This document shows positions 16,361 through 26,510 of a DNA stretch of 64,000 nt, in pieces. The position numbers and the translations under genes were made by a program. The notes beneath the pieces are model-generated. The model was not told the origin of the DNA. It was given only the letters and a program-made list of their open reading frames with translations, and made no database searches. This stretch comes from Sphingomonas xinjiangensis (GTDB lineage Bacteria; Pseudomonadota; Alphaproteobacteria; Sphingomonadales; Sphingomonadaceae), in contig NZ_JACIJF010000002.1 of assembly GCF_014199255.1 (NCBI RefSeq), forward strand, positions 248,001 to 312,000, read 5' to 3'. How positions within the stretch are numbered: position 1 is the stretch's first letter; each line of letters begins with the position of its first letter.

Positions 16361-17398
16361 GTGAACGTAGACCTGTTTGATTTCGAGCTTCCGCCCGAGC
16401 GGATAGCGCTGCGCCCCGCGCAGCCGCGCGATGCGGCCCGCCTGCTGCTGCTGACGGGTGACGAGCGCCAGGACCGACACGTCCGCGACTTGCCCGGGCT
16501 GCTAGCTCCGGGCGACCTGCTCGTATTCAACGACACCCGCGTCATCCCCGCGCAGCTGGATGGGCGGCGCGGAGATGCGCGCATCGGCGCCACCCTCCAC
16601 AAGCGGGAGGGTCCGCGCGAGTGGCGGGCCTTCATCCGCAACGCCAAACGGCTGCGCGACGGCGACGTGATCGACTTCGGCCAAGGAGTCACCGCGACCG
16701 CCAGCGGCCGCGCCGAAGACGGTAGCTTCCTGTTGCGCTTTGCCGGCGACGAGCCGGTGGAGCTGCTCCTCGCGCGCTGCGGCCATATGCCGCTCCCGCC
16801 CTATATCGCCTCCAAGCGTCCGACCGACGAACGGGACGCCACTGACTATCAAACGATGTTCGCCAATGAGCCGGGGGCCGTCGCCGCCCCCACCGCGGCG
16901 CTGCACTTTACCCCGGATCTCCTCGCCCGGCTCGAGGCGGCAGGCATCGGCCACGCCACGCTTACGCTCCATGTCGGCGCCGGCACCTTTCTGCCGGTCA
17001 AGGCAGAGGACACTGACGCACACAAGATGCACGCTGAGTGGGGCCGCATCGACGCCGCCACGGCCGACCGGCTCAACGCCGTTCGCGCCGCCGGCGGCCG
17101 TGTGATCGCCGTGGGCACCACCAGTTTGCGGTTGATCGAAAGCGCCGCGGGCGAAGACAACATCATCCGCCCCTTCGAAGGGGACACGGCGATCTTCATC
17201 ACCCCGGGCTACCGCTTTCGCGGCATCGATGGGCTGATGACCAATTTCCATTTGCCGCGCTCGACCCTGTTCATGCTGGTATCGGCACTGATGGGGCTCG
17301 ACCAGATGAAGGCGGCTTATGCCCATGCCATTGAAAATGATTACCGTTTCTACTCTTACGGGGATGCGTCGCTCCTTCTCCCGTTACAACGGTGCTGA
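16361..17398 (+). CDS. queA: tRNA preQ1(34) S-adenosylmethionine ribosyltransferase-isomerase
   Basis: 345 residues, GTG start at 16361, 15 bases after the isomerase gene. QueA signatures run the whole length: [56 protein letters not shown], and the C-terminal [12 protein letters not shown]. It builds epoxyqueuosine on tRNA from preQ1. The reading frame is complete, but its last seven residues are not those expected, and a second copy of the final 44 codons lies 7.4 kb downstream at 24676-24807. The 3' end may therefore have been replaced by an incoming element. Confidence 0.95.
17267..17398 (+). repeat. Left copy of duplicated queA 3' end (candidate att site)
   Basis: The last 132 bases of queA align without gaps to 24676-24807; I count 97 identities by hand. 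The first 32 bases differ at only two positions, while the rest differs much more, as expected when the crossover core lies at the start of the homology and the remainder came with an element. Confidence 0.7.
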
Positions 17399-17616
17399 GT
17401 GGGGACAGCCACGAGTATCAGGTTAACGCCCATTCGCCTTGCAGTGGTGGGTGCTTGGTAGCAACAGCAGGACGATTGCAATTGGGCCGTGAACAGGCCG
17501 GCAGATTCCGAGGCGGTGCCGCATTATGGCGGCGGGTTCTCGGCCTTGGACCATGTGCGTCACGAGGCCTTCAACCAGGGGTTGCCAGTGTTCTCTTTAT
17601 GTTCCACTCTGCCGCG
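17399..17616. other. Gap after queA with no recognisable gene
   Basis: 218 bases without a supported gene. A short open stretch reads HYGGGFSALDHVRHEAFNQG in one frame, which looks protein-like, but it has no start signal and no family I recognise; it may be a remnant. Confidence 0.4.
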
Positions 17617-17814
17617 ATGCAGACCGACTCCCTCCAGCCCGCCGCGATTGCTGAAGCGCTGCTGTTCTCCACGCCCGGATGGGCAAGGATCGGCTTAACC
17701 GCACCCGATGAACAGATGCGCCAGAAGGCAGCGCAAGAACTGGCTGTTTCGATCGCGCAGGCTCTGACCGGCGATCGGACCTTTGATCCAAACCAGCTGC
17801 ACCTCCCCCTCTAG
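17617..17814 (+). CDS. DUF6771-like small protein
   Basis: 65 residues from the ATG at 17617 (an ATG at 17599 would add six). The pattern of an Ala-rich helix, then LLFSTPGWARIGLTAPDEQM, then QKAAQELAVSIAQAL and a terminal DPNQLHLPL resembles the DUF6771 small proteins of sphingomonads as I remember them. Function is unknown. The stop codon is followed almost at once by the next start, so it forms a pair with the decayed gene downstream. Confidence 0.65.
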   Translation: MQTDSLQPAAIAEALLFSTPGWARIGLTAPDEQMRQKAAQELAVSIAQALTGDRTFDPNQLHLPL

Positions 17815-17815
17815 G

Positions 17816-18110
17816 ATGGGCGCGAATGTTCGGCTTGATGACCTTCATGATCTGATCCGCCACAAAGCCAACCTGCTCGTCATTTCCAAGTTGGGAAGCA
17901 GCACATCTACGACCCATCTAGGTTCTGCCGGTATGCGATGGCGCGGGACTGGAACACCTCTCTGGCGACTCTGGGCCACCGCATCCGATGTCACCGATAC
18001 AACCTGCGTCACCCTCGTCTTCGCGCTAACTCGCACCAGCCGACGCCTGCTGATCCGTTTCCCGCACCGAGCAGAAATGGAAGCACTTAACCCGCAGGCT
18101 CAGGGGCTGA
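17816..18110 (+). pseudogene. Frameshifted small zinc-ribbon-like sphingomonad protein
   Basis: The product can be followed across three frames. It begins MGANVRLDDLHDLIRHKANL, continues in a second frame as HIYDPSRFCRYAMARDWNTS and LATLGHRIRCHRY, and ends in a third frame as RTEQKWKHLTRRLRG before the TGA at 18108-18110. This order (arginine-rich start, DWNTSLATLGHRIRC-type middle, WKHLTRRLRG end) matches a small sphingomonad protein type with paired cysteines. Two indels break it; one of the expected cysteine pairs is also missing. It follows the DUF6771-like gene directly. Confidence 0.65.
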
Positions 18111-18196
18111 TTGACTGCCCCGCTCCTTGACCTAGCCACGGGCGACGCTTGCATCCTTAGAGAGTCGCAATCGTTATGATCTCAAAGGAGAAGTGC

Positions 18197-18373
18197 ATGT
18201 CCGACAACAAAGAGCTTCGAGGCCCCGAAGACGCCTCACGCATCGCAATCCACGAGGACTACGAAGTTCGGTACTGGTCCAATAAGTTCGGCGTCACGCA
18301 CGAGCAGCTGAAGGAAGCTGTTGATGCTGTTGGCCACAGCGCCGCCGCCGTCGAAGAGCACCTCAAAGGCTGA
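18197..18373 (+). CDS. DUF3606 domain protein
   Basis: 58 residues with a perfect AAAGGAG site before the ATG at 18197. The stretch SRIAIHEDYEVRYWSNKFGVTHEQLKEAVDAVG is the DUF3606 signature. Such small proteins are common in stress-inducible loci of alphaproteobacteria; the biochemical role is unknown. A second small gene follows after two bases. Confidence 0.88.
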   Translation: MSDNKELRGPEDASRIAIHEDYEVRYWSNKFGVTHEQLKEAVDAVGHSAAAVEEHLKG

Positions 18374-18375
18374 TC

Positions 18376-18555
18376 GTGGTGCAGAGGAAGAGTACGCTGG
18401 AGCGGGCATTCGAACTCGCGCGTGAAAGCGGTTGCCGCGACGTGGAGGAGGTCCGCCGCACACTCGCGTCCGAGGGTTATTCCGGTGTGGAGCAGCATCT
18501 AGCGGGCCACTCAATCCGCAAGCAAATCAGAGCAACCATCGCAACTCGTCTCTAG
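18376..18555 (+). CDS. Small basic hypothetical protein downstream of DUF3606
   Basis: 59 residues from the GTG at 18376: MVQRKSTLERAFELARESG, then a helix ending VRRTLASEGYSGVEQHLAG and a basic tail. It begins two bases after the DUF3606 stop, so it is probably translated from the same message. It looks like a pair of short helices with the IRRxLxxEGY pattern often seen in small sphingomonad proteins. The function is unknown. Confidence 0.6.
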   Translation: MVQRKSTLERAFELARESGCRDVEEVRRTLASEGYSGVEQHLAGHSIRKQIRATIATRL

Positions 18556-18635
18556 CTCACTTGAGCGTTCCTGCGTTGCTTATAAAGAGCCCCACCTTTT
18601 CACGTATGTTGCTCGGCTTGAACTTGTATCTACGT

Positions 18636-19260
18636 CTACACCTGCTGTTCTATAAGGAAGCGACACATAGTTCTTGCAACCTCTGGTAGAACCTTGGGCG
18701 CGATCGTCTTATTAACTTCGAAGTCGTGGTCGGCTCCCAGCACGCGATGGTAGTCCACGAAGGCACCGCGTGATCGAACGTTTTCGACGAAGCGCTCGAT
18801 GTCTTCCCCGCGAGACGAGTAACGCTTTTCACGATCCTTCGCGATCTCTGCCAGAGTGACTTTGCCGAGTTTGCCGATCAACATGGCTTCGGCTGCCCTA
18901 AGCGCATCGTTCATCGAGGCGTTCACTGCCTGTTCGACAAGGCATTCAGGCGCTGGATCAGCCAAGCCTATGGTAAAAAACCCGCGGCTCTCCCACCGCC
19001 TTGTAGACGTCCAGCATCGTGAAGCGGTCAAGTGATTTCGTTAAAGTCCAGCCCCCGGCGTGCCCCTTATCTGAGCGGACCAGCCCTGCATCCCGCAGCC
19101 CCGCCATTGTTCGCCGCACCACCACAGGATCGGTGTTGAGCATCTGCGCCGCGTCCCCGGAGGTGATCGGGGCATCGGCCCTGTCCAGGTGGATCAGGAG
19201 GTGCAGCATCCTCGATAAACGACCGTCCGGTTGCATCGATTTCTTCCTCAGGGTGCTCAT
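18636..19260 (-). pseudogene. Rrf2-family regulator, frameshifted, with alpha/beta-hydrolase-like tail
   Basis: From the ATG at 19260 the frame gives a winged-helix Rrf2 regulator (GRLSRMLHLLIHLDRADAPI, GWTLTKSLDRFTMLDVYKAVGEP) and stops at 18958. With one T fewer in the T6 run (A6 on the plus strand, 18975-18980) it continues as IGLADPAPECLVEQAVNA and VTLAEIAKD, the normal end of such regulators. Instead of stopping there it runs on into DIERFVENVRSRGAFVDYHR and GADHDF, which look like the C terminus of an alpha/beta hydrolase including its catalytic His. No FeS-ligand cysteine cluster of the IscR type is seen. It is divergent from the flavin oxidoreductase. Confidence 0.75.
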
Positions 19261-19272
19261 GTCACATCATGA

Positions 19273-19304
19273 GTTGCATAATCCGGTTTACCCGGATATG
19301 TAAC
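19273..19304. promoter_or_regulatory. Inverted-repeat operator overlapping a promoter between Rrf2 and FAD genes
   Basis: GTTGCATAATCCGG (19273-19286) and CCGGATATGTAAC (19292-19304) form a near-perfect inverted repeat. It overlaps a plausible plus-strand promoter with TTGCAT as -35 and TATGTA as -10, 16 bases apart. Position and symmetry suggest the binding site of the divergent Rrf2 regulator, repressing the oxidoreductase and itself. Confidence 0.65.
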
Positions 19305-19345
19305 TTATCCTGTTACAGAACGCGCCATGGCAGGAGTAAAGTGAC

Positions 19346-20239
19346 ATGCATGATGTGATTGTGATCGGCGGGAGTTTCGCGGGCCAGTCCGCCGCTATGC
19401 AGCTTGCCCGGGCACGGCAGAACGTCCTTCTGATAGATGCGGGCATGCCGCGGAATCGGTACGCTAACGCATCGCACGGCTTTCTTGGCCAGGACGGCAA
19501 CGCGCCTCACGCGATCATGCGGGGGGCGACGTCCCAGCTGCTAAAATATCCCACGGCTCAGGTTCTCGCCGCGGAGGCACAGCGCGCCGCCCGGCAGGAC
19601 GATTCTTTCGTCGTCACGGTGACGGATGGGGCCGAGCACCGTGCAAAGCGCCTCGTGCTCGCCACTGGCGTTACAGACATCCTGCCCGATATTCCCGGCA
19701 TGTCGGAACGATGGGGAGAGACGGTCCTTCATTGCCCATATTGCCACGGCTATGAGGTTCGCGACCATCCTCTCGGTGTGATAGCCAACCACCCGATGTC
19801 CGCGCACCAAGCAGTGTTGATCCCCGACTGGGGACCGGCCACATATTTCACGCAGGGCGTCCACGAACCCGAACCGGAACAGGCGGCTTTGCTCAGCAAG
19901 CGGGGCGTACGGATCGAGCGCTCTCCCGTGATCGCGTTGGTCGGAGACGCTCCGAACCTACACGCCGTCGAGTTGGCAGACGGCCGCATGATCGAAGTGT
20001 CCGCCGTTTTCACCGCGCCGCGGACCAGACCAACCAGCATGATCGCCGCCGAGCTTGGCTGCGCCATGGAGGATGGCCCCACCGGTCCCTTCGTGAAGGT
20101 AGATCCCTGGGGAGCGACCTCAGAGCTCGGCGTGTACGCGGCGGGTGATGCGACCAGCCCTATGCATAATGCGACGATCGCGTCGGCTTCGGGGGTGCTC
20201 GCGGGCGTCGCCGCTCACCAGTCATTGGCTTCCGCATAG
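19346..20239 (+). CDS. NAD(P)/FAD-dependent oxidoreductase, thioredoxin-reductase-like
   Basis: 297 residues, ATG at 19346 preceded by GGAG. It has the FAD dinucleotide motif VIGGSFAGQSAAMQLARA at the N terminus, a CPYCHG redox-type motif near residues 131-136, and the C-terminal FAD motif GVYAAGDATSPMHNATIASASG. This is the short, thioredoxin-reductase-like class often found beside Rrf2 regulators, suggesting redox- or nitrosative-stress-responsive expression through the operator upstream. The electron acceptor is unknown. Confidence 0.88.
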   Translation: MHDVIVIGGSFAGQSAAMQLARARQNVLLIDAGMPRNRYANASHGFLGQDGNAPHAIMRGATSQLLKYPTAQVLAAEAQRAARQDDSFVVTVTDGAEHRAKRLVLATGVTDILPDIPGMSERWGETVLHCPYCHGYEVRDHPLGVIANHPMSAHQAVLIPDWGPATYFTQGVHEPEPEQAALLSKRGVRIERSPVIALVGDAPNLHAVELADGRMIEVSAVFTAPRTRPTSMIAAELGCAMEDGPTGPFVKVDPWGATSELGVYAAGDATSPMHNATIASASGVLAGVAAHQSLASA

Positions 20240-20263
20240 AGCGGATCAGCGCCTCCCCTCTGC

Positions 20264-20298
20264 GTCTGCTTACGACGGTAATCGCCGCGTAAGCAGAC
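20264..20298. repeat. GTCTGCTT hairpin, copy 1
   Basis: GTCTGCTTACG pairs with CGTAAGCAGAC around a 13-base loop, in the convergent gap after the FAD oxidoreductase. A sister hairpin with the same outer stem lies at about 22847-22880. Confidence 0.6.
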
Positions 20299-20446
20299 CG
20301 GGCGCCAACCATTATGCGTGTTGATCGACTAACGGACGGAGACGCCTCGCGACAAGCCGAACGGCGAAGTCCTGGCGCTCAGCTGCTGCCGTCTATTGAT
20401 TGCGTGGCCGGCACCACCTAGCCTGCTGTCCCGATTTTCGATGCGG

Positions 20447-20811
20447 TCACATAGATACAGCTTCGAATAGCCAAGCCTCAGCCGATGCCCGGTCGTCAAT
20501 CCGCGAACCGTGTCGGCTTCGCCGCTCATCCGGCGCATCTGCATCTTGATTGCCGAAGCGCCGGTAACGATCGCCACTCGGCGAAAGCGACTAGCATCCT
20601 CTCCAATCGTCTTCCGGATCTTTTCGGCGATTTCCTGTGTCTGGATGTTGCAAGCGCGGACGTCGATCAGGGCCAAATTGGTGCTGTGTGAAAGCGTTTG
20701 ATCGCGCTCTGCCTCCCACTCTTCGAAATCCGCTAGGGTGGCTAAACTGCTGAACGTCATCATCAGCAGCCCGCGTCGATCATCTGTCGAAATCTGGAAA
20801 GAGAATCTCAT
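20447..20811 (-). pseudogene. STAS/SpoIIAA-like protein with 2-base insertion
   Basis: From the ATG at 20811 the frame encodes a small STAS-like protein (LLMMTFSSLATLADFEEWEA, ALIDVRACNIQTQEIAEKIR, RVAIVTGASAIKMQMRRM). After EADTVR the frame changes to an unrelated tail and stops only at 20329. Removing two bases in the CCGCG at 20501-20505 restores IDDRASAEAWLFEAVSM and a stop at 20447, the usual end of this family at about 121 residues. The gene is therefore probably inactivated late in the sequence, or makes a protein with a 55-residue odd tail. Confidence 0.7.
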
Positions 20812-20886
20812 CGAAGCTGACTTAGCCAGCCGGCGTTGCTGAAAGGTACTCGCCCTGGCCTCAGCCTATGGGCAAAAAACCATCAC

Positions 20887-21348
20887 CTATCGCACAGCGC
20901 TCATCGCGGTTTGAACTCGAAGCCTGAGATGCACGAGGGGGTATGGTCTGCCTTGGCCGTCTAACGCTGAGCGACCCACCTGGACGAAGCCCATCCGTTC
21001 GTAGAAGCCCACCGCTTGCTCGTTCTGTTCATTGACGTCCGTAGTCAAATTTGGGTGCAGAGCCGAACCGTGCCTAACGAGGGCAGCCCCAACCCCCTCC
21101 CCGCGCACGGTCGGGTCGACGAACAAAGCTTCCATGTGCCCGTCGTTGAGCAGCATGAAGGCAACTGGACGTTCGGTTGAATTGACCGCGAGCCACAACG
21201 GTGCCTTCGGCAGGAAGTTTGACACCAGTTCGTCTATCGCAAGCCGGTCTTCGGGCGTCAGGAAGGTGTGGGTGGCGTCAACTGCATCGCGCCAGATCGT
21301 AAGGACCCGGTCACCATCCTTCGGAGTCGAGGGTCTGATCGTGATCAC
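20887..21348 (-). CDS. GNAT family N-acetyltransferase (YjaB-like)
   Basis: 153 residues from the GTG at 21348, chosen because AGAGGT lies just upstream and the fold begins at once with ITIRPSTPKDGDRVLTIWRD. The acetyl-CoA motif is PTVRGEGVGAALVRHG, followed by LTTDVNEQNEQAVGFYERMGF and the GRSALDGQGRPYPLVHLRL end typical of YjaB-type enzymes. It transfers acetyl from acetyl-CoA to an unknown amine. It is divergent from the XRE regulator. Confidence 0.88.
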   Translation of the reverse strand: MITIRPSTPKDGDRVLTIWRDAVDATHTFLTPEDRLAIDELVSNFLPKAPLWLAVNSTERPVAFMLLNDGHMEALFVDPTVRGEGVGAALVRHGSALHPNLTTDVNEQNEQAVGFYERMGFVQVGRSALDGQGRPYPLVHLRLRVQTAMSAVR

Positions 21349-21527
21349 TGTACCTCTGATGCTCGAACCTAGCTGCTGTATGCAACCGGCAGATTGCGCG
21401 GATGGTTGGGCCACGAAACTAAATGCGGCCAGATGTACTTGCGCTCGCATTGGTGGGAAGACAACGTTATGAACTGGCATCGCGTTGCGGCTCGCCGTGT
21501 GACGGAGCGCAAGATGGATTGTTCCTG

Positions 21528-22061
21528 ATGGCCTTGACGGACTTCCACTCGACAGGATTGGCACTGCGGAGGTGGCGGCTGCTCCACCGCATCAAGCAAG
21601 CGCACGCCGCTGAAATCTTCGGCGTTACTCAAAGTACAATCTCGCGTTGGGAGGCAGGCTCGATAGCACCAGCGCCGGATCAATATGCCCGGCTCTGGTC
21701 CGTGTTGAGCGCGAGATTGGAAGCGGCCGCCGATCGGGAACTGGCGAAGCTTGTTTGCGAGAGCCCGCGGCCCGTGCACATCATCTGCAACACCACCCAC
21801 ACATTGCTGGCTGCATCATCCTCAAGAAGAGGTGAGTTCGGGCAGGAGGACCTCACTGGCCGATCTCTATGGCCTTATGCCACGCCTGAGATCGCAGCTG
21901 CCGAATACAGAATGAGGGACGCTGGAGAGCCCTGTGTCGAGCTTGAAACCGGAAATAACGACTCCGTCGCGGTGCCCATCCGTTCCAGCCGGTGCCGATG
22001 GACGCGAATGATGTTGTCCGATGGTTCGGCGGTCCGGCTTGTGGAAACGCTAGCCTCCTAA
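21528..22061 (+). CDS. XRE-family helix-turn-helix regulator
   Basis: 177 residues from the ATG at 21528. The N-terminal 60 residues are a Cro/C1-type domain (ALRRWRLLHRIKQAHAAEIF and GVTQSTISRWEAGSIAP). The remainder (LVCESPRPVHIICNTTHTLL, EDLTGRSLWPYATPEIAAAE) resembles a small PAS-like sensing domain. It probably controls itself or the divergent acetyltransferase. Its stop overlaps the stop region of the convergent HAD gene by four bases. Confidence 0.8.
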   Translation: MALTDFHSTGLALRRWRLLHRIKQAHAAEIFGVTQSTISRWEAGSIAPAPDQYARLWSVLSARLEAAADRELAKLVCESPRPVHIICNTTHTLLAASSSRRGEFGQEDLTGRSLWPYATPEIAAAEYRMRDAGEPCVELETGNNDSVAVPIRSSRCRWTRMMLSDGSAVRLVETLAS

Positions 22062-22753
22062 CGAATGGCGTCAATCAATGCAGGCAGTTCCGCGAGGCTG
22101 TTCAGTTTCGTAAAGCACGGGTGATTGGCTGGCACTTCGGCCTTCTCGTGAACCCAAGCACCCTCTTGCGGGATGAAGGCTGCCCATGCACCCGCTTCTA
22201 GCGCGGGGTTGATGTCCGAGCGGAGCGAGTCCCCCGCCATCAACGCCTCTTCAGCAGCCACGCCTTCGTTCTTGAAAATCCGGCGGAATGTGTCAGCCGT
22301 CTTGTCACTTACGATCTCGATCCCGCTGAAGCGGTCCCCCAGCCCCGAGGCTGCCAGCTTGGCTTCTTGGTGGAGCAGGTCTCCTTTCGTGACGAGGACG
22401 AGGGGGCCCCTGGAAGCGAGTTGGGCCAAGGTATCTGCAACCCCGTCGAAAAGTTCGACCGGATGCGACAGCAATGCGCGACCGGCAGCCAGAATGCGCG
22501 CGAGAAGATCTTTAGGCAACGGGTCGTCCGCCAATTCGATAGCGGTCTCTATCATCGACAGGGTGAAGCCCTTAGCGCCGTAGCCATAAAGCTTCAGGTT
22601 TCTCGCCTCGCACGCATTCAATTGGTCCCGCGCGATATCGCGGGAGGCGAACGGCTCGACGAGATCCAGCAGAGCCTCTTCAGTCGAGTTGAAGTGCTTC
22701 ATATTGTACCAAAGCGTGTCGTCAGCGTCGAGGCAGATGAGCTTGATTGTCAT
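22058..22753 (-). CDS. HAD-superfamily hydrolase
   Basis: 231 residues, ATG at 22753. Motif I is DADDTLW at residues 9-15, motif II is LVTKGD, the motif III lysine lies in SDKTADTF, and motif IV is AGDSLRSDINPALEAG, so the catalytic set is complete. The start of motif I (DADDTLW) is typical of phosphatases related to pyrimidine or phosphoglycolate phosphatases. The substrate is unknown. It overlaps the end of the XRE gene. Confidence 0.85.
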   Translation of the reverse strand: MTIKLICLDADDTLWYNMKHFNSTEEALLDLVEPFASRDIARDQLNACEARNLKLYGYGAKGFTLSMIETAIELADDPLPKDLLARILAAGRALLSHPVELFDGVADTLAQLASRGPLVLVTKGDLLHQEAKLAASGLGDRFSGIEIVSDKTADTFRRIFKNEGVAAEEALMAGDSLRSDINPALEAGAWAAFIPQEGAWVHEKAEVPANHPCFTKLNSLAELPALIDAIR

Positions 22754-22846
22754 GCGACAAAGCTACCTAAGCCACCACCTCGGCGCCACGCATGAATTAT
22801 GCGCGCAACACCGTGAGTCCGCTCGCCGAGCTACCGACAAGCCCGT

Positions 22847-22880
22847 CTGCTTTCGGCGGCTCGCACGCGAAAGCAGACCG
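22847..22880. repeat. GTCTGCTT hairpin, copy 2
   Basis: GTCTGCTTTCG pairs with CGAAAGCAGAC. The stem sequence is shared with the hairpin at 20264-20298, differing by the compensated T/A pair, so the two are members of a dispersed palindrome family. Confidence 0.6.
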
Positions 22881-22897
22881 ACCGCTTTCCACCGAGA

Positions 22898-24442
22898 CTG
22901 TGTGAAAACGTGCTGATGTGGTAGAGTTCTGGCGCTGATGGAGGTGCTGGGATGGGCCGTTTCATCGAGGGGAGCGACCGGCGGGAGAGGCTGCTGCTGC
23001 CGGACTGTATCGACGATTATGTGATCGCGGACAGCCCGGTTCGGGTGGTCGACATGTTTGTGGACGAGTTGGACTTGAGCGAGCTGGGTTTTGGCGCAGC
23101 CGCCGCGACGGGGCGACCGAATTATCATCCGGCGACCATGCTCAAGCTCTACATCTACGGTTACCTCAACCAGGTGCAGTCGAGCCGGCGGCTGGAGCGC
23201 GAGGCGGGCCGTAACGTCGAGTGCATGTGGCTCACAGGCAAACTCGCGCCTGACTTCAAGACCATCGCCGACTTTCGCCGCAACCATGGTGCGGCGATAC
23301 AGGCGGCATGCCGGCGCTTTGTCCTGGTCTGCCGCAACCTGGGTCTCATCGCTGGCGGCACGGTGGCGGTGGACGGCAGCCGCCTGCGAGCGGTGAATGC
23401 GCGCGACCGGAACTTCACGCCTGTCACGATCCGGCACCGGATGGAGCAGGTGGATGCCAGCATCCAGCGCTATCTCGGCATGCTCGATACTGCCGACCGG
23501 CAGGAGGGCGAGGCAGCTGAATGGCGCACGGCCCGGCTGACGACGACGCGGCTCGACGCCTTGCGCCGGCAAATGCGCGACCTGGAAGCCATGGAGCAGG
23601 CGGTCGCGGCCACACCCGACCGGCAGATCTCGCTGAGCGACCCGGACGCGCGCGCGATGGCGTCGGCGGGAGGCGGCACGGGCCTTGTCGGCTACAACCT
23701 TCAGGCGGCGGGCGACGCGGACACCCACATCGTCGTGGCGCACGAAGTGATCAATCTTGGCCACGATCGCACGTCGCTGGCGAGCATGGGGAAACAGGCG
23801 CGAGACGCGACCGGCGCCGATACGCTTATCGTGCTGGCCGATCGCGGCTACTTCTCAGGCCCGGAGGTGCTGGCGTGCGAGAAGGACGGCGTCGTGGCGA
23901 TCTGCCCCAAGCCACTAACTCAGGCGCCAAGGCCGAGGGGCGCTTCGGCAAGCAGGACTTCGTCTACCAGCCGGACACTGATACCTATCGCTGCCCCGCC
24001 GGCTAAACCCTGACCCGACGCTTCTCCAGCCTCGAACATGGTCTGACGCTTCATGGCTATGCCACGCCAGCCTGTCGCTCCCGCTGCGCTGTAAAGGCGA
24101 ACTGCACCGCGGGCATCGAGCGACGCATCAAACGATGGGAGCATGAAGAGGTGATCGATGCCATGCAGGCCCGGCTTGACCGCTGGCCCGATGCCATGCG
24201 CGTGCGACGACGAACGGTGGAGCACGTTTTCGGTACGCTGAAAGACTGGATGGGCCGAAGCCACCTCAAAACACGAAGGCTCGGGAACGTGGCAACCGAG
24301 GCCAGCCTCCACATCCTCGCCTACAACATTAAGCGCGCCATCGCGCTCCTGGACGTGCCAGGGCTCATCGCCGCAATGCAGGGCTGAACCACAACGCCGC
24401 GCGCGCCCAACCAACCAACGCACAAAGCCGTTCTCACACGGC
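22898..24442 (+). mobile_element. IS1182-family insertion sequence, inactive
   Basis: Ends are recognised as imperfect terminal inverted repeats: CTGTGTGAAAACGTGCT at 22898-22914 against CCGTGTGAGAACGGCTT read inward from 24441. The element is about 1.54 kb and carries one transposase gene broken by a frameshift and a stop. No clear target duplication is visible. Confidence 0.75.
22952..24387 (+). pseudogene. IS1182-family transposase, frameshifted with an internal stop
   Basis: The ATG at 22952 has GGAGG upstream. The N-terminal DUF772-type domain (YHPATMLKLYIYGYLNQVQS, RRLEREAGRNVECMWLTG) and the start of the DDE core (GTVAVDGSRLRA, LADRGYFS) are normal. Near 23920 one base is missing: after CPKPLT the correct frame is SGAKAEGRFGKQDFVYQPD. 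In that frame CPAG is followed by TAA at 24004-24006 where Glu is expected. Beyond it the C terminus is good (GIERRIKRWEHEEVIDAMQA, RTVEHVFGTLKDWMG). The enzyme cannot be functional. Confidence 0.85.
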
Positions 24443-24675
24443 CTCCACCAGTTCGAGACATAGCTACGTCGACAGCACTCCTTGAGAGGTACGCCGGAAG
24501 CGCTGCGTGCTGCCGGATGGTGGGCGACTTCGCCAAACTGCATCCAGCCAACATGCTCTGGGCTGGCTAAGCCTCGAGTCCGTAAGACAGCCGCGTTCAG
24601 GACGTTGACGGGTGTGGGTTAAACAGCAGCCAGATTTCTCGAGAAGTATCTCTTATCCTACATCGTGCCCAAAAT
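24388..24675. other. Right end of island, no gene recognised
   Basis: 288 bases between the transposase stop and the displaced queA tail. Apart from the IS end at about 24425-24442 I see no gene, promoter or repeat that I can support. Confidence 0.4.
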
Positions 24676-24807
24676 CTGTTCATGGTGGTATCGGCGCTGA
24701 TGGGGCTGGGGGCGATGCAGGCGGCGTACGCGCATGCGATTGCGAGTGGATACCGCTTCTACTCTTATGGCGACGCATCGCTGCTTCTTCCGGCTCCCGC
24801 CTTGTAA
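24676..24807 (+). pseudogene. Displaced 3' fragment of queA (right boundary of island)
   Basis: 43 codons and a TAA, in frame and without indels relative to the end of que[21 protein letters not shown], then [20 protein letters not shown] and PAL. Its ending looks more like an ordinary QueA C terminus than that of the intact gene at 16361-17398. It has no start and is only the tail of a former queA, followed by the chemoreceptor gene. Confidence 0.85.
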
Positions 24808-24875: not shown

Positions 24876-26510
24876 GTGGCACAACCCGAGAAATTTCTAC
24901 CCTCTGCTTGGAACCTGCTGGTCAGCTATGTCCGGGCGCTGTGCAGGATGGGTATTGCGGAAGATCGGACCGTTCGGCTGGTATTCGCGCGGCAGCTCGA
25001 TGCCACGACGCATGCCTGGCGCGGTCTCGTGCCACTCGCGATTGTTTTCGTCGCGGCGGGTATCGCCGCTCTTTGGGGCTCCACCAATCGGCCTGGCGCC
25101 ATTGCCGGCGCGCTGTTGATCATCGGGACGATGATCTGGGGTTGGCGCGTGATTCCCACTCGCACGGCGGACAAGGATCTCAAGGAGGTCGCCCGATGCC
25201 ATCTGATCTGCGCAAGCTTGGTCGGCATAGGCTGGGCGGTGCTGTGCATCGCGCTTACCGCCTATGCCAGCCGCGAGCAGATCTTCCTCGTTTCCCTGGT
25301 GCAGTTGGCGCTGATGGCCGTCGGGCTGATTATGTATGTGAACCTGCCTATCGGCTATTTCGGCTTCAGCACGCCGGTCGCTCTGTCACTGGCGATTACC
25401 TCGTCGCCAGTCACGCTCGGGGGGCCCGCGGTCAGCCTGCCGATGATCCTGGTTTACTATGCGATCATGGCAAAGGCTGCGGTGGATCAATCGGCGGTGT
25501 TCGCGGAAGCGCAGACTTCCACCAGCCGGCTCGCCGAGAGCGAGTTGGCCAGGGTTGAGGTGGAACGCAAATCGGCCGAGGAGCAGGCAAGGCGCGCTGC
25601 CGAGACGCGCGCCCGTGAAGCAGAACAAAGCATCGCCGCCTCCCGTCAGGCTGAACAACTCAAACGCGCTTCGCTGCTCGAACTCGGCGCACAATTCGAA
25701 AAGGACGTCGCCGCGGCGGTGACCTTGCTCTCGCAAGCCGTGGCGGAACTGGACCAGTCCGCTGCGCAACTCGCCACCATTGGTGAGAAAAGCGCAGGCG
25801 CCGCCGCCGATGTCGCGGAGCGCGCCACCGCGGCCTCTTCATCGGCGCTCTTTGCCGCTACCGCTGCAAGTGAGCTGGGGCAGAGCGTGGGTGAGATCGC
25901 CAGTCATGTCGATGGACATGCCGCCTTAAGCGACGCCGCACGAATGCTCGCCAGCTCCAGTTCGGAGCGAATTCATGCCATTCGCGAGGAAGCGGCAAAG
26001 ATCGACGACGTCATCGAGCTCGTCGACGGAGTCGCCGGCCAGACCAAGCTCCTCGCGCTCAACGCAACGATCGAGGCGGCACGGGCAGGTGATGTCGGCA
26101 GGGGCTTTGCCGTTGTCGCGGGCGAGGTCAAGGCGCTGGCCAGCCGCACGTCGAACGCCACTGCCGATGTGCGCGCGCAGACGGGGTCGATCGTGGGTCA
26201 GATCGCGACCGCCTCTGCCCGCATGACGGAAACCGCCGGCAAGATCGACGAAGTGGCGGCGATCGCCTCGTTCATCGCGTCATCGATCACGCAGCAGCGC
26301 CAGGCGACGCTCGAAATCGGGCATGAGACCAATCAGGTCGCAGACCATGTCGACGATGTCCGCGAACGTGCGGCCGAACTGGCCAGCGGTGCCCAAGTGA
26401 CCAGCAGCCTGGCTCGCGCCATGAACGAGACCATCGCTCACATTTCCCGGCAAGCCGATACGCTTCGAGCGGAGACAGCCGGATTTCTGGAGCGGATCCG
26501 CGCCGCCTGA
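24876..26510 (+). CDS. Methyl-accepting chemotaxis protein with multi-pass membrane domain
   Basis: 544 residues from the GTG at 24876; a TTG at 24846 is an alternative, since the frame stays open upstream. About five hydrophobic segments (LVPLAIVFVAAGIAALWG, CASLVGIGWAVLCIALTAYA, LVSLVQLALMAVGLIMYV and others) form the N-terminal half without a periplasmic sensor loop. A charged coiled coil (ARVEVERKSAEEQARRAAET) leads into the signalling domain, whose hairpin tip is LLALNATIEAARAGDVGRGF. It should control CheA from the inner membrane; the input may be membrane state or an intramembrane cofactor. No che genes lie nearby. Confidence 0.88.
   Translation: MAQPEKFLPSAWNLLVSYVRALCRMGIAEDRTVRLVFARQLDATTHAWRGLVPLAIVFVAAGIAALWGSTNRPGAIAGALLIIGTMIWGWRVIPTRTADKDLKEVARCHLICASLVGIGWAVLCIALTAYASREQIFLVSLVQLALMAVGLIMYVNLPIGYFGFSTPVALSLAITSSPVTLGGPAVSLPMILVYYAIMAKAAVDQSAVFAEAQTSTSRLAESELARVEVERKSAEEQARRAAETRAREAEQSIAASRQAEQLKRASLLELGAQFEKDVAAAVTLLSQAVAELDQSAAQLATIGEKSAGAAADVAERATAASSSALFAATAASELGQSVGEIASHVDGHAALSDAARMLASSSSERIHAIREEAAKIDDVIELVDGVAGQTKLLALNATIEAARAGDVGRGFAVVAGEVKALASRTSNATADVRAQTGSIVGQIATASARMTETAGKIDEVAAIASFIASSITQQRQATLEIGHETNQVADHVDDVRERAAELASGAQVTSSLARAMNETIAHISRQADTLRAETAGFLERIRAA

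Follow-up and report, generated by a model that had tools for sequence, protein, structure and literature searches.

Two queA tails bracket a probable relic of an integrative element in Sphingomonas xinjiangensis

Why does a single gene for tRNA queuosine modification come with two tails? In the stretch of Sphingomonas xinjiangensis DNA analyzed here (64,000 nucleotides of contig NZ_JACIJF010000002.1, hereafter the window; host genome 4.47 Mb in 64 contigs), queA is intact, and the sequence of its last 43 codons occurs a second time beyond an island of unrelated genes. We consider it very probable (roughly 0.9) that those last 43 codons served as the insertion site of an integrative element belonging to a queA-specific family. 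The features on which this reading turns are given below, with the putative left and right attachment (att) sites named attL and attR; here and throughout, G-numbers denote genomes and L-numbers loci, and G190 is the closest relative.

16361-17398, + strand: queA, tRNA preQ1(34) S-adenosylmethionine ribosyltransferase-isomerase, 345 amino acids (aa), with an element-type end (Pfam PF02547, E = 1e-121; 770/906 to G190)
17267-17398, + strand: putative attL, the element-type queA tail (88-89% to the G077, G055 and G105 tails; diagnostic sites); it continues to LLLPLQRC, and other element tails mostly end after LLLP
17399-24675, no strand: island body, 7277 bp, G+C 0.606 (repeat borders, composition)
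24676-24807, + strand: putative attR, the displaced headless queA tail, preceded by AAAT as at other queA islands (repeat alignment; 102/117 to the G190 tail; diagnostic sites)

The two tails lie on the same strand and align without gaps, with 97/132 positions identical. This breaks down into 30/32 over the first 32 bases and 67/100 over the remainder, exactly the repeat counted in the preliminary description of this DNA. Similarity ends sharply on both sides (0-4 matches per 10 in the flanking blocks), and the pair is the strongest match in a self-comparison of the window, with E = 2e-22, which excludes chance. The first tail is the in-frame end of the intact queA, so that the reading frame of the target gene is whole despite the island; the second is a headless 43-codon fragment ending LLLPAPAL. 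Between them lie 7277 bp (7409 bp from repeat start to repeat start), with a G+C content of 0.606 versus 0.654 in the rest of the window. Excision in silico yields an in-frame QueA of 345 aa, and the queA body matches that of G190 at 770 of 906 bases.

Other genomes carry an extra tail at the same place. Our sample of the genus comprised 295 genomes, of which 201 were covered by a search with the displaced tail as protein query: a queA tail was recovered in 199 of these 201, with more than one match in 12. DNA similarity within the tail pairs begins at the same CTG codon (around residue 303) in 11 of the 12 pairs aligned, G072 being the exception. queA and a second tail share one contig and strand, 0.8-13.2 kb apart, in the window genome (G000) and in G029, G055, G105, G119, G166 and G167; the second tail is on a different contig in G077 and G157, and G157 also has a tail 0.3 kb from queA. 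A 23-base junction pattern marking the displaced tail occurs in 10/295 genomes, newly adding G281, and the reversed pattern, used as a control, gave none among the matches listed. Together with Sphingomonas liriopis (G222, locus L079), which has three tails and a different junction, at least 11 of the 295 genomes carry an extra tail starting from the same queA codon. The extra tail was unseen in most genomes, and relatives do not all share one gene order lacking a second tail, the situation that the preliminary description had named as speaking against insertion.

Not counted as islands were G072, with a degenerate fragment 1.4 kb from queA; G031, with a 49% match; and G059, with an element-type tail on a separate contig. 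The G059 tail (L073, G059:C168:3312-3434) has no queA body, and the queA of that genome is itself native-tailed; it is a possible orphan attachment site. A non-coding unit of 304, 304 and 309 bp lies between queA and a further tail at L135 (G281), L079 (S. liriopis) and L068 (G157), respectively. Each unit consists of a queA tail plus 187-192 bp, and these spacers appear related (119/169 aligned bases, z = 9.1, for G281 and L079; z = 6.0 and 2.8 for the other pairs). Such units may be minimal att cassettes or a shared remnant. In Sphingomonas parapaucimobilis, a 395-kb replicon recorded as a plasmid also has an annotated queA (NZ_CP155752.1, 83599-83719).

The occupied sites are linked to an integrase. 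A tyrosine-recombinase open reading frame (ORF) lies upstream of the second tail, on the same strand, in G029, G055, G077, G105, G119, G157 and G281, with a fragment in G167, at a distance of 0.2-2.9 kb from that tail; none was found in the 0.8-kb island of G166 or in the window. Where the preliminary description had proposed looking for queA islands with a recombinase in relatives, a tyrosine recombinase does lie between queA and the extra tail in most. These integrases form one family, 50-97% identical; the G119 protein has Phage_integrase, SAM-like and Arm-DNA-bind_3 domains, and the G055 protein is without its N-terminal part. Among solved structures, the family profile distantly matches XerC-like proteins, XerA, HP1 integrase and other recombinases. 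Relatives at E <= 1e-80 are encoded in 37/295 genus genomes, and all eight scoring at least 599 bits sit between queA and a displaced-type tail. The next score is 469.5, and the G167 fragment (331.5 bits) is also within a queA island. At lower scores, 0 of 22 checked loci had a queA tail within 1.5 kb, a radius too small for G119, G029 and G222, whose tails are visible in longer loci. Because integrase-bearing elements occupy the same spot in relatives, such elements appear to use the queA site repeatedly.

Beyond the genus sample, a scan of named genomes gave 29 integrase loci, and a queA tail follows the integrase in 12 of them, five being genus genomes counted already. These 12 are made up of 11 of the 12 sphingomonad-titled loci in the scan and one metagenome-assembled genome (MAG) titled Oxalobacteraceae; among them are S. 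jatrophae, S. liriopis, Sphingobium sp. Ant17 (two loci), Sphingobium chlorophenolicum and Novosphingobium sp. Leaf2. The 17 named loci without a queA tail, some of them on short contigs, comprise 16 betaproteobacterial and other loci (43-52% identity) and one Sphingomonas MAG (59%). Family-wide, 34 of 397 genomes encode integrase relatives, and with a sphingomonad QueA as query a tail within 1.5 kb was found at 1 of 30 checked loci (L150, probably the S. jatrophae locus again). Since 17/29 named and 29/30 family-wide loci are without a queA tail, much of the wider integrase family appears to target other sites. Phage and plasmid records yielded no relative of the integrase at >=60%, and a scan of IMG/VR returned only three relatives, at <=33% identity. 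The integrases of L085 and L089-L103, 43-52% identical and located in betaproteobacteria and others, had no queA tail found nearby.

Which of the two tails came with the element? In occupied Sphingomonas genomes the usual reading of the queA-joined tail is MK.AYA[YH]AIEN, and displaced and single-copy (native) tails read differently. The K of MK occurs in 1 of 40 lower-ranked native tails and in none of the first native sample. Tail 1 of the window is 88-89% identical to the queA-joined tails of G077, G055 and G105, and 93/117 (79.5%) to its own second copy. Its mean identity is 0.850 to eight element tails versus 0.770 (maximum 0.829) to the 40 lower-ranked natives. At diagnostic sites defined with those 40 natives (23 sites), tail 1 carries 17 element and 4 native states and tail 2 carries 7 and 12; with the first native sample (22 sites), the counts are 15 and 5 for tail 1 and 4 and 13 for tail 2.

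Three trees of the tails were built, each on 117 columns and with unsettled bootstraps. In the first (78 tails, whose 44 natives had been picked as the closest matches to the displaced tail and so formed a biased sample), 11 attL rows, three middle or orphan tails and the second tail of S. jatrophae, which is element-type, formed a clade with support 99/98 and no natives. Two attL rows from more distant genomes fell outside it, and the attR rows were scattered, no tighter than shuffled labels (138/500 as low). With the 40 lower-ranked natives instead, attL required 8 changes against a shuffled mean of 12.2 (0/500 as low). With both native samples (114 rows, without the distant pairs L081 and L082), 15 element rows required 2 changes against a shuffled mean of 14.3 (0/500 as low). 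The present queA tail is element-like, and since it is nearer to the element tails of other species than to natives and clusters with them, an element-derived origin of the restored queA end is well supported. Tail 2 is 102/117 identical to the G190 tail; past the first 32 bases, tail 1 matches G190 at 63/85 positions (P = 0.006) and tail 2 at 71/85 (P = 0.40), against 85.0% for the queA body. The likeness to this closest relative, together with its position, favors tail 2 as the host's own, though not firmly. As a separate observation, an element-like MK residue occurs at L250, in a genome (G056) with one tail found; it is possibly the trace of a departed element.

The right flank of the island agrees with insertion, to judge from the gene that follows it.

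24876-26510, + strand: chemoreceptor (methyl-accepting chemotaxis protein), right flank (PF00015; 79% identical ortholog with conserved leader in G190)

Its leader, ATAGCGTTAACCATTGCC, starts 12 bases past the displaced tail and is kept in G190. In that genome a single queA is followed by CHASE2-like, FecR-like and ShlB-like genes (named by eye) and then by the chemoreceptor ortholog with its leader. Either G190 gained the three intervening genes or the window lineage lost them.

The flanks of the tails, here termed left and right arms, contain a recurrent repeat. The motif G[GAT]T[GA]GG, which was picked after viewing the alignment, has 18 occurrences across 11 left arms, against 3.2 on average and at most 10 in mononucleotide shuffles, and 21 across 16 right arms (2.7 on average and at most 9 in shuffles); native 3' flanks hold 1 in 9 and 4 in 40. 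It lies no more than 30 bases from the LLLP end of the tail in 10 of the 11 left arms, the window being the exception, and 79-84 bases ahead of the second tail in 14 of the 16 right arms, the exceptions being the window and G166. We infer that these GGTGGG-type repeats are integrase arm sites. The corresponding stretches of the window are as follows.

17399-17480, no strand: degenerate left arm, with a single arm-like GGTGGG at 17446, farther from queA than in relatives (motif scan)
24601-24619, + strand: possible decayed attR arm site, resembling the G105 arm by eye; the arm motif proper is absent (position)

The left arms of L061, L070, L079 and L068 resemble the 3' half of a tRNA (T-arm-like and ..GGCGGCACCA-like stretches, by eye). 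These stretches gave no ARAGORN match, and the two tested in Rfam (L061, L079) gave none there. A tRNA gene as the true target was rejected on these grounds and because none was found in the window.

Taken together, these features suggest the following course of events. The attP site of the element would consist of a queA-tail copy with GGTGGG-type arm sites on either side, which the element's tyrosine recombinase would recombine with attB in the 3' codons of queA. The host queA body would thereby be joined in frame to the element's tail, leaving QueA whole, and the host's own tail would remain at the far border as attR. Later decay would have removed the integrase, replication module and cargo; what now fills the interval is an IS1182 copy and accessory genes of types widespread in the genus, and its ends are recognizable mainly by the two tails. 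Insertion, as the preliminary description had it, is thus supported by same-codon extra tails, mostly accompanied by a tyrosine recombinase, and by the element-like first tail.

Several results weigh against this reading. Nine backbone proteins of other queA islands, including the integrase, have no credible match in the window's island (tblastn, best E = 0.42), and in comparisons of DNA and ORFs its interior shares only the tail with those islands. The arm motif was a choice made with the alignment in view, and the window's right arm lacks it. No perfect empty site was found: the preliminary description had looked to a relative with an uninterrupted queA followed directly by the chemoreceptor gene, and G190 supplies the single queA and the chemoreceptor with its leader, with three genes separating them. 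The 99/98 clade support rests on natives chosen by likeness to tail 2; in the second tree the forks around the attL rows are open, and in the third a single element clade appears in 30% of bootstrap trees, although it is not rejected (approximately unbiased test, p = 0.19). Against G268, both tails fall below the identity of the queA body (63/85 and 64/85; P = 0.008 and 0.015), which makes that genome uninformative about where the displaced tail came from. Finally, tail 2 has mean identities of 0.787 to element tails and 0.782 to the 40 lower-ranked natives. Of the tail replacement proposed in the preliminary description, the element-type nature of the new end therefore stands, and the host origin of the displaced tail is only favored.

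The alternative that survives best is compatible with insertion by a queA-specific element. Two successive elements could have occupied the site and been deleted against each other, leaving a composite interval. Three tails are present in G281 and S. liriopis, G157 has a short tail-to-tail unit, the second tail of S. jatrophae is element-type, and a composite origin would accommodate an interior that shares nothing with other islands; the window, however, has two tails only, and we regard such a history as unlikely here, if still worth serious consideration. Considerably less probable is that the queA tail was exchanged through homologous recombination with foreign DNA, the island itself arriving by ordinary recombination or with the IS1182 copy. 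An interval without an integrase, and an IS1182 transposase ending 288 bp ahead of the second tail, would fit this, but the border codon and AAAT-type junction are those of the integrase-bearing islands, and the positions of the repeats do not match that of the transposase gene. An origin of the two tails by segmental duplication within the lineage, with one copy later diverging, was the second case that the preliminary description had set against its own reading, and we consider it highly improbable: the two tails share a genome and an orientation and agree at 30 of their first 32 bases, and tail 2 is about equidistant from element and native tails, but over the same 117 bases tail 1 is closer to the queA-joined tails of other species than to its own copy, it clusters with element tails, and in other genomes the break falls at the same codon and an integrase lies between the tails.

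If an element of the queA-specific family did insert here, what is left of it? The interior of the island contains the following features.

18200-18373, + strand: small ORF, 57 aa, without NCBIfam match (ORF list, NCBIfam scan)
18636-19260, - strand: Rrf2-type regulator, apparently frameshifted into two parts, 18958-19260 (PF02082, E = 2e-19) and 18636-19031 (unmatched)
19346-20239, + strand: thioredoxin-reductase-like flavoprotein (PF07992, E = 1e-24; under the NCBIfam cut-off for TRX_reduct)
20887-21564, - strand: GNAT acetyltransferase ORF, start uncertain (PF13673, E = 1e-10)
21423-22061, + strand: HTH-domain regulator ORF, start uncertain (PF01381, E = 2e-7)
22058-22753, - strand: HAD hydrolase (PF00702, E = 3e-14)
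22952-24388, + strand: IS1182-family transposase pseudogene, with a frameshift near 23918 and a stop (NF033551, E = 4e-79, 266.8 bits versus a cut-off of 270; three-frame translation)

The frameshift in the Rrf2-type regulator is suggested by overlapping frames. No terminal inverted repeats were found for the IS1182 copy at a threshold of 15/20. Parts of the island, mainly the Rrf2/reductase and HAD stretches, have relatives in 124/295 genus genomes. The preliminary description had noted that no integrase lies between the borders, and this is borne out: tblastn detected neither an integrase nor a primase/helicase replication module in the island, and a search of the whole window genome at E <= 1e-80 returned no protein of the relevant integrase family. 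Because it has no backbone, no restriction-modification-type cargo and a broken IS1182 transposase, the island reads as the relic of a mobile element. Separately, a copy of the HAD region (22045-22807), 88% identical, lies at another place in the same genome (G000:C16:1208-1970).

The islands of relatives illustrate what a fuller element looks like. By homology, they share a predicted backbone of small ORFs, a primase/helicase-like protein and the integrase, together with restriction-modification-type cargo, and the more complete ones measure approximately 6-13 kb from tail to tail. The small ORFs s1 and s2 have homologs in 9 of the 23 island segments compared, several of which are partial: as two ORFs in seven (G029, G105, G119, L076, L078, L079, L082), whereas in G281 and L081 the two share a single match. 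No Pfam or PHROG family matched the small ORFs tested. The protein ahead of the integrase carries a VapE domain in G029 and L081 and AAA_25 in L079 and L082; in G105, G119 and L076 it is related to the DNA polymerase/primase of PHROG 19930, with tblastn relatives in L078 and G281 (a fragment). The cargo at the queA end, named by homology only, differs from island to island: a C5-methyltransferase with a XamI-like nuclease (G077), with a weak restriction-endonuclease match (G281) or without such a partner noted (G105); two methyltransferase-like proteins (G119); an N6-methyltransferase (L081); a reverse transcriptase (G029); and a UvrD/GajB-like helicase (L079). A pooled scan that covered 49 of 106 ORFs, with 25 of 41 families listed, also matched Vsr, GmrSD and TIR domains, with carriers unspecified.

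Integration at a gene end with restoration of the gene is a well-known mechanism. Phage 21 and e14 use it at icd, where the coding frame is rebuilt and the displaced piece stays behind. Phage satellites of the P4 and phage-inducible chromosomal island (PICI) types combine an integrase at one end with a primase/VapE-type module and variable cargo. The more complete queA islands resemble them in each of these respects, at approximately 6-13 kb; unlike in those satellites, no helper phage or packaging gene was identified for the queA islands. SGI1 integrates at the 3' end of trmE and related elements at yicC, according to the relevant passages of PMC8409611, and they likewise pair a tyrosine recombinase with a gene end as attB. 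Compared with the SGI1, yicC and icd elements as there described or generally known, the queA group has its own target, integrase family, arm motif and backbone, and the window copy has lost its integrase.

Closer in the choice of target are the dusA islands, in which, as the main text of PMC4482086 describes them, every island has the integrase and roughly half of the genes occur in a single island only. As with the queA family, one integrase family serves one tRNA-modification gene; unlike the queA islands, they insert in the 5' end of their target. That main text names dusA, thdF/mnmE, rimO-like and rluA as tRNA-modification targets; queA is not named, and the word is absent from it. In Pseudomonas, the part of PMC2647930 on PFGI-2 and T-PAI places these islands in a tRNA-Leu gene downstream of tgt and queA. 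They, too, adjoin queA and encode a putative phage integrase, with the difference that tRNA-Leu is the target there, not queA. As 43.4% of the islands catalogued by TIGER/Islander are in protein-coding sequences (PMC12424338, a paper that names no target genes), queA islands may be listed in that catalogue. In the open-access literature, searched by titles, abstract openings and term counts, with subscription literature and the TIGER data file outside the search, no description of queA as an attachment site was found among the papers listed, in line with the preliminary description, which had called the target unfamiliar.

A broader proposal, which we put forward tentatively and rate at slightly under even odds, is that the 3' end of queA is the dedicated site of a family of hitherto undescribed satellite-like, defence-carrying elements of the Sphingomonadaceae. 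Each would bring its own version of the last 43 codons, successive insertions would exchange the C-terminus of QueA, the 304-309 bp units would be minimal att cassettes, and the window would hold a fossil of such an element. If the queA reading is true, queA would join the short list of tRNA-modification genes serving as attachment sites, and a second queA tail after RAATCTGTTCATG would provide a simple sequence test for such islands in sphingomonads. It would also draw attention to an integrase family and to a place in the genome where restriction-modification-type genes are exchanged, and it would make natural swaps of the QueA C-terminus available for functional study.

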